NCBI GenBank assembly: GCA_020846935.1
Contig: JADLCY010000001.1
Location: 62,001-126,000, forward strand
Origin: Gemmatimonadaceae bacterium
GTDB taxonomy: Bacteria; Gemmatimonadota; Gemmatimonadetes; Gemmatimonadales; Gemmatimonadaceae
Direction: 5' to 3'
Length of the DNA: 64,000 nt
The translations under genes were made by a program, and so were the position numbers. Position 1 is the first letter of the stretch. Every line of letters begins with the position of its first letter. Under the pieces are notes generated by a model. That model had not been told where the DNA came from. It did no database searches and was given only the letters and a program-made list of their open reading frames with translations. This document shows positions 10,730 through 11,573 of the stretch, in pieces.

Positions 10730-10894
10730 ATGCGAACGAGCGAGAACAACGAGAACGACCAGGAGCCAATGGGCATCGTGATCTCGGGCGGAAGTCGCGC
10801 CCCTGCCACGCCCCGTTTGTGGGCCTACGTGTGGGGGCAGTTCGAGGAGCCCGCGCCGGCATCAGGACAGGCGACGGAGGTCCGCGCCGCCTGA
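10730..10894 (+). CDS. Small 54-residue protein of unknown function
   Basis: The ATG at 10730 is preceded by AAAGGA (10 bases away) and GAGGAG (closer), a strong purine-rich ribosome-binding region. The product has a hydrophilic N-terminus (MRTSENNENDQEP), a hydrophobic/aromatic core (MGIVISGG, then PRLWAYVWGQFEE), and a Pro/Ala tail. No signal peptide or membrane helix is apparent. The gene is followed 18 bases later by a textbook intrinsic terminator. The leader-plus-core look recalls peptide precursors, but no maturation enzyme is adjacent. It is a real small gene by RBS and terminator, with function unknown. Confidence 0.65.
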   Translation: MRTSENNENDQEPMGIVISGGSRAPATPRLWAYVWGQFEEPAPASGQATEVRAA

Positions 10895-10912
10895 CACGTC
10901 GTTCGCGCACAC

Positions 10913-10944
10913 AAAAAAGCCGGCGCTTTCGCGTCGGCTTTTTT
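10913..10944. terminator. Bidirectional intrinsic terminator
   Basis: AAAAAAGCCGGCGC, loop TTTC, then GCGTCGGCTTTTTT: an eight-pair GC stem (one G-U) flanked by A6 and T6. It works on both strands and serves the two convergent small genes at 10730-10894 and 10967-11032. Confidence 0.93.
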
Positions 10945-10966
10945 GTTGATTGGGACCACGTGCGCG

Positions 10967-11032
10967 TTAGCGCTTCTTCTTCGCGGCCTTCTTCTTGGTG
11001 GCCTTCTTCGCAGCCTTCTTCTTCGCAGCCAT
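10967..11032 (-). CDS. 21-residue Lys/Ala protein, histone H1-like tail
   Basis: An ATG at 11032 preceded by AGGAGA with 7-base spacing opens a 21-codon frame ending in TAA. Apart from Met1, one Thr and the final Arg, the product contains only Ala and Lys, in AAKKK/AAKK repeats. Eleven of 21 residues are Lys, so it would be strongly DNA- or RNA-binding. The composition matches the C-terminal tails of histone H1-like bacterial proteins, but here it stands alone without a folded domain. It shares the terminator at 10913-10944 with the opposing small gene. A candidate promoter lies ~220 bases upstream. Confidence 0.7.
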   Translation of the reverse strand: MAAKKKAAKKATKKKAAKKKR

Positions 11033-11573
11033 GAGAAAATCTCCTGGTCTGTGGTTTCGCCGGTCCATTCCCCCGGTGGAGTGGTCGGCAGCAACCGGAC
11101 AATCCCTCGCCCGGCTGTTCTGTCGCGCCCGAACCGCGGCGCACATCTGCGAGGACTACCAATACCGCCAGTCAGCCCGCGTGCCCTGAACCTCGCTGCA
11201 CCGCATCACGCAGCACTTGACGAACAGGCCTACAGTTCTGACCGGCAACAATCTATAACAGCGGATGCAAGTCCGTAAAGTTGACCGCGTGAAAAATCTT
11301 CAAGCGGCTTTCCATGGGTGGGACGTCGTCGATGGCGTTCGAGTCACGAAGACTCGCGCCGGCCGCGCGAACGATGGCGCGGGAAGCCCGCTGATGCGGC
11401 GGGGGCGAACGTGGTGCTGAGCGTGCGACGATGTGGTCGTCGGCAGATCCGGCTCCGCTGGACGCGTTGCGCGAATATAGGAACCGGAGCGAGCGCGCGT
11501 CAATGATGCTGGCGCCTGCCGCATGTGGCAACGATGTTCAACGCAGTCGCTCTCCCCTTCACCATCACCCCCA
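11033..11573. other. 541-base intergenic region
   Basis: Besides the minus-strand promoter candidate, it holds a short plus-strand frame from GTG 11290 (starting VKNLQAAFHGWDVVDG, 43 codons) with codon usage unlike the rest of the window and no good RBS. No other gene or repeat is evident. Confidence 0.4.
11252..11279 (-). promoter_or_regulatory. Candidate promoter for the Lys/Ala mini-gene
   Basis: On the minus strand TTTACG (11279-11274), a 16-base spacer and TATAGA (11257-11252) stand in one of the most AT-rich patches of the window. It would give a ~210-base leader before the gene at 11032. Confidence 0.4.

Follow-up and report, generated by a model that had tools for sequence, protein, structure and literature searches.

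Bacteria of the family Gemmatimonadaceae appear to make a free peptide of the histone H1 tail type under control at the RNA level, since a leader hides the ribosome-binding site of the conserved gene encoding it. In bacteria, Lys/Ala tails of the H1 kind are known as portions of larger proteins; here the tail stands alone, down to 14 residues in length. The gene (referred to below as the KA gene) is conserved, single-copy and family-wide, possesses a dedicated switch-like leader absent from Rfam, and is easily missed in annotation because of its small size. It represents a minimal natural test case for an H1-type tail acting alone. The leader RNA and the link of the tail to SWIB proteins are new here; searches of the literature on Gemmatimonadota yielded nothing about either the RNA or the small protein.

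The KA gene and its signals

Features of the locus within the window (the whole stretch of 64,000 nucleotides analysed) are listed in Table 1. A preliminary description of this DNA had proposed a stand-alone frame of 21 residues with clean start and stop, a ribosome-binding site AGGAGA at a distance of 7 bases and a shared strong terminator, and all of these were confirmed. The terminator hairpin (-31.2 kcal/mol, z -4.3 upon folding) has an A-run and a T-run on both sides and also ends a convergent plus-strand ORF.

Table 1. Positions of the KA gene and associated elements in the window
Feature	Position	Strand	Remarks
KA microprotein gene	10967..11032	-	21 codons and stop, translation MAAKKKAAKKATKKKAAKKKR; orthologous ORFs in relatives
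Shine-Dalgarno (SD) AGGAGA	11040..11045	-	7 nt (TTTTCTC) 5' of ATG
Bidirectional intrinsic terminator	~10911..10946	both	common to KA gene and convergent small ORF
Hairpin pairing SD and start codon (CCA-G-GAGA / UCUC-A-UGG)	11028..11047	-	predicted by folding; form of SD hairpin HP2 in the clade of the window
HP1 of leader, GCCGACCACUCC-ACCGGG-GGAAUGGACCGGC	11059..11089 (loop 11077-11072)	-	R2 match, covariation
Helix 2, extended leader (CAGCCGGGCG...UGUCCGGUUG)	11092..11117	-	covaries within subclade
Helix 1, extended leader (GCGCC...GGCGC)	11125..11142	-	pairs kept, little variation, weaker support
Candidate promoter TTTACG-16-TATAGA	11252..11279	-	~220 nt 5' of ATG; sequence and spacing conserved

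The 21-residue product alone has no match in Pfam or NCBIfam. A longer in-frame ORF of 59 residues, starting from 11146, was rejected as the gene because relatives contain one-base indels in the extension and preserve the inner ATG and SD. The convergent small ORF (10732-10894, containing EPMGIVISGGSRAPATPRLWAYVWG) has no Pfam or NCBIfam match either; 50 of 114 relatives likewise have a similar small gene converging on the KA gene, and it would be a second unannotated conserved small protein.

A Lys-rich short ORF directly preceding a terminator could belong to an amino-acid attenuator, in which a terminator comes after a leader peptide, and the Thr and Leu leaders of Rfam indeed scored weakly. 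These scores lie below the gathering thresholds and are driven by the terminator hairpin only, so that a Thr or Leu leader identity was dismissed. The attenuator itself is refuted by gene order: no biosynthetic or other gene follows on the same strand beyond the terminator, the next gene being convergent. We give this explanation practically no credence.

Searching with the DNA of the gene and its flanks, we found four genomes of the same genus matching over most of the query (85-91%) and two other Gemmatimonadaceae genera matching at 72-76%. Start, SD, stop and terminator are kept in these relatives; the gene is present throughout the genus, and the ORF length in other genera differs by whole codons. 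The 116 ORFs linked to the leader described below code for 14-137 amino acids (median 33) and are made almost wholly of K, A, R, G, T and S. Across 115 proteins, K accounts for 39.5% and A for 28% of residues, with seven acidic residues in total; such Lys/Ala low complexity almost devoid of acidic residues is the composition of polycations of the AlgP-tail type. A terminator-like hairpin is present in 103 of 115 relatives. In 64 close pairs of equal length, which overlap phylogenetically and make the counts descriptive, codon positions 1, 2 and 3 differ 84, 87 and 311 times, and the changed codons comprise 245 synonymous versus 118 non-synonymous ones. The direction of these counts is clear. 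At the level of sequence comparison, the KA frame is thus shown to be coding and under coding constraint, and it is no chance frame. The preliminary description had named lack of conservation of the frame or ribosome-binding site as evidence against a gene; instead, frame, SD and terminator turned out to be conserved across the family.

The same data bear on the possibility that the RNA is the functional product, i.e. a small RNA with a terminator, the KA frame being a by-product or serving stability control. As this explanation expects, the leader has strong structure and, within the clade of the window, high conservation, but the strong third-position bias, the in-frame length changes, the K/A/R-rich product maintained throughout the family and the conserved ATG and SD make it highly improbable.

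The candidate promoter of the preliminary description fared less simply. A generic sigma-70 scan gave no promoter suitably spaced from the KA gene, but relatives have the sequence TTTACG-16-TATAGA in the corresponding position, including those without an overlapping gene. Where tldD/pmbA lies upstream, this sequence overlaps the end of tldD (..FNFTSLSDAI, then stop; Pfam check). The sequence is retained even where tldD is not adjacent, as in the window and genus g27. This favours, short of proof, the reading as a candidate promoter. By a strict tail test and Pfam check, tldD was found directly upstream of the KA locus in 37 of 116 cases, and we read this adjacency as neighbourhood history, with the putative promoter lying inside the tldD end. 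A functional link to TldD/PmbA, with the peptide as substrate, was rejected, tldD being adjacent in those 37 cases only and absent beside the gene in the window. DNA resembling a TldD tail (VNFTDLHPLL, then stop) is retained at 11250-11290 of the window (minus strand), where the candidate promoter lies, and three tldD/pmbA pairs are present elsewhere in the same genome.

The leader RNA and the Shine-Dalgarno hairpin

A covariance model (R1), built from ten leaders with a three-helix consensus, matched 86 of 179 Gemmatimonadaceae genomes. The loci share a common core composed of HP1 with the loop ACCGGG, a hairpin holding the SD, and the ATG of a K/A-rich ORF. According to a strict test, the leader precedes an ORF rich in K/A/R/G/T/S in 81 of 90 first-pass loci; among the rest, some have the element but were lost to contig ends or the filter, and a few are chance matches. 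Nearly all further leader matches inspected also precede such an ORF. One match (G023:C4, L045) was discarded as a chance hit inside another gene.

A core alignment of 78 distinct sequences (A3), for which the loop and a minimum of 4 of 5 inner pairs had been required, retains pairing in 84% of cells, and 13 of its 17 pairs display double changes. Its covariation amounts to 0.279 versus 0.109 in shuffled and at most 0.098 in slid controls; for the ten pairs outside the selection filter, the corresponding values are 0.262, 0.117 and at most 0.090. The HP1 stem occurs as GATCC/GGATC, AATCC/GGATT, TTTCC/GGAAA, GAACC/GGTTC, CATCC/GGATG and GATTC/GAATC. Among 35 further leaders, picked without requiring the loop by score of a model that itself favours ACCGGG, 33 have the loop ACCGGG and two have ACCGGT.

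The core served for a second covariance model (R2), which matches the leader of the window at 11099-11030 (56.5 bits, E 1.2e-16). R2 matches were obtained in 152 of 179 Gemmatimonadaceae genomes, 96 of 105 high-quality genomes and 33 of 35 genera, nearly always as one strong copy per genome; in the other nine high-quality genomes, no R2 match was detected. Comparison thus shows a conserved, covarying predicted RNA which travels together with the KA gene, and in our judgement the leader is very probably a real cis-regulatory RNA. No Rfam family matches it at the gathering threshold. Its identity as 6S RNA was rejected, given its sequential hairpins instead of a rod with a central bubble and the lack of an RF00013 match. 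An Rfam search found no such match anywhere in the genome of the window, which may mean either a diverged 6S RNA or its true absence.

Only weak matches to the leader model were found in 109 genomes of the other families of the order; the best in family f2 has an E-value of 3e-4, and a leader may exist there. Of the 57 places found by a pattern scan of 84,980 species, 52 lie in Gemmatimonadota; the remaining five contain neither the hairpin nor a KA frame and were discarded. Within the phylum, genes that begin with a KA stretch and have a GGAG SD hardly occur outside this order. Stand-alone KA genes of the sister family f3 (L016, L025, L028, L034) have a similar hairpin 5' of the SD with diverged loops (ACTGGG, ACTAGG, ACTTCC), and R2 scores L016 at E 0.001. 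Given these analogous hairpins, the two-hairpin leader plan may be older than the Gemmatimonadaceae.

GGAG is conserved in nearly all of the 78 leaders, and CUCC followed after 3 to 9 nt by GGAG is found upstream of the KA start in 84 of 116 cases, versus 3 of 69 control genes (long genes with a GGAG SD). The mean unpaired probability of the SD is 0.08 in KA leaders and 0.37 in controls. The clade of the window differs from this family consensus: its CCA-GAGA/UCUC-UGG hairpin has the same sequence in relatives of the same genus and in genus g27, whereas other genera use CUCC...GGAG. By comparison, the SD is shown to be sequestered in a predicted leader hairpin, and more so than in other genes.

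A hairpin of 4-5 pairs with a variable loop would also fit a simple thermosensor, or an SD hairpin that intrinsically limits the rate of translation without any specific ligand or factor. This would, however, leave HP1 and its near-invariant loop unexplained, and we regard it as unlikely.

SWIB proteins and the proposed role of the free tail

The KA tail is tied to SWIB, a domain of eukaryotic chromatin remodelling and plastid nucleoids. The same organisms encode SWIB-domain proteins whose N-terminal tail is matched by the free one; the SWIB domain (PF02201) is absent from the 21-residue product and present in these KA-tailed relatives. Genus g13 has a second, diverged leader copy in front of genes for MAAKKKAAKKPAKKAAKK...-SWIB proteins (PF02201 5.6e-26), so comparison shows that KA-SWIB genes of one genus use the same putative leader. 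A KA-tailed SWIB protein is encoded in the genome of the window as well, without a recognisable leader. In family f2 (L274, G276:C7 ~71700-72020), a KA-SWIB gene is accompanied by a tandem copy that has the same upstream sequence and stops after the tail. As far as can be read from sequence, this pair is an independent case of a free tail derived from a SWIB gene by duplication and truncation. With frame, SD and terminator conserved and the tail matching those of SWIB proteins, the characterization as an H1-like tail forming its own gene holds as a description; what the preliminary description had missed is the conserved structured leader, the element that tells us most. A KA-rich C-terminal tail was also noted in the genome of the window on a protein that reads, by eye, like ribosomal protein uL4 (L005, G000:C11 ~412089).

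Taken as a whole, the statement that the KA gene specifies a translationally controlled, H1-tail-like polycation acting on the nucleoid seems to us rather probable. The locus would form a complete small transcription unit consisting of promoter, structured 5' leader of ~200 nt, 21-codon gene and terminator, and its product would be a free polycation of the histone H1 tail type. The cis-acting leader would lock the SD, and in the window the start codon as well, into a hairpin and thereby keep translation low until something opens or binds the leader. Recognition or switching is the likely task of HP1 with its ACCGGG loop. Two structural possibilities can be envisaged for HP1: pairing of its GGGGG arm with the anti-SD CUCC might release the SD, and its CCGG loop might support a kissing dimer. 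The ACCGGG loop is near invariant while the protein varies between 14 and 137 residues, which points to a reader of the loop distinct from the peptide or to an action of the loop as RNA. We infer that the peptide is translated and abundant and that it binds DNA, and likewise that the leader is opened in response to some sensed signal.

Most likely, the peptide belongs to the polycations of the H1/AlgP/Hc2-tail type and has nucleic acid or polyphosphate as its target, presumably in a nucleoid- or RNA-binding role. It would most likely coat or compact a polyanion, nucleoid DNA first, together with the KA-tailed SWIB proteins. At 14-21 residues, a KA peptide may lack the length needed to compact DNA specifically, and any polyanion could be its target.

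One such target is polyphosphate, which Gemmatimonas aurantiaca accumulates. The peptide might then be associated with polyphosphate or granules, as AlgP is in Pseudomonas, rather than be mainly a nucleoid protein; AlgP, which has an H1-like KPAA tail, is described as localising to polyphosphate granules and spacing them (PMC9239181). The partner domain of the tail is here SWIB, a chromatin-type domain and not a granule protein, and we hold the granule alternative to be unlikely. The partner domain has precedents on the nucleoid side: plastid SWIB-4 with an H1 motif is described as a DNA binder that complements an hns mutant of E. coli (PMC4154389), and binding of a SWIB protein along the entire genome is described for Waddlia (PMC6426960).

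Binding to ribosomes or RNA must be weighed, too. Here, the product would be an unannotated tiny ribosome-associated protein and the leader its autoregulatory operator. Structured leaders with a sequestered SD are typical of autoregulated ribosomal-protein operons, the KA gene is single-copy in each genome, and a KA tail occurs on the uL4-like protein mentioned above. The length and sequence of the product are, however, far too variable for a fixed ribosomal site, and ribosomal families of Pfam or NCBIfam gave no match. We judge this alternative quite unlikely and retain the nucleoid as the preferred site of action.

A broader proposal can be offered tentatively, as possible rather than probable. 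The leader would constitute a new regulatory RNA family specific to Gemmatimonadaceae, with a diverged counterpart in the sister family, controlling the free H1-tail peptide and, in one genus, KA-SWIB. This would amount to a chromatin-like regulon composed of a detached H1-type tail and its SWIB partner, with HP1 (ACCGGG) as the RNA sensor setting the dose.

Comparison with known systems

AlgP of Pseudomonas aeruginosa offers a close parallel at the level of the tail. Like the KA peptide, its C-terminal KPAA-repeat domain is a disordered, Lys/Ala-rich, H1-tail-like bacterial polycation, and KPAA-repeat peptides are described as binding DNA in vitro (PMC9239181). Unlike the KA peptide, AlgP is a large protein with an N-terminal domain of its own and long Pro-rich repeats, and no structured leader of the KA-gene kind is seen in the available part of the same source. 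Plastid SWIB-4 with an H1 motif (Melonek 2012, as cited in PMC4154389) and bacterial KA-SWIB proteins form a further parallel, the same KA tail being found on SWIB proteins of the genome of the window and its relatives; the gene in the window consists of the tail alone, without the SWIB domain.

The chlamydial proteins Hc1/Hc2 (HctA/HctB) resemble the KA peptide in their H1-tail-like composition. The 21-residue peptide has no match to HC2 (PF07382), and a long Gemmatimonadaceae member (L124, 113 residues) reaches 5.7e-7 and 30.3 bits, below the gathering cut-off of 40. Translational control of HctA by the small RNA IhtA (PMC3469542) is a precedent for such regulation of an H1-like protein; IhtA acts in trans, whereas the KA gene would be controlled by its leader in cis. 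In its architecture, the KA leader is like ribosomal-protein autoregulatory leaders and SD-sequestering riboswitches or thermosensors, having a structured 5' leader, an SD held in a hairpin and a conserved hairpin upstream. It differs from ribosomal-protein-type leaders and riboswitches in lacking an Rfam match and in the gene it would regulate, which encodes an H1-tail-like peptide.
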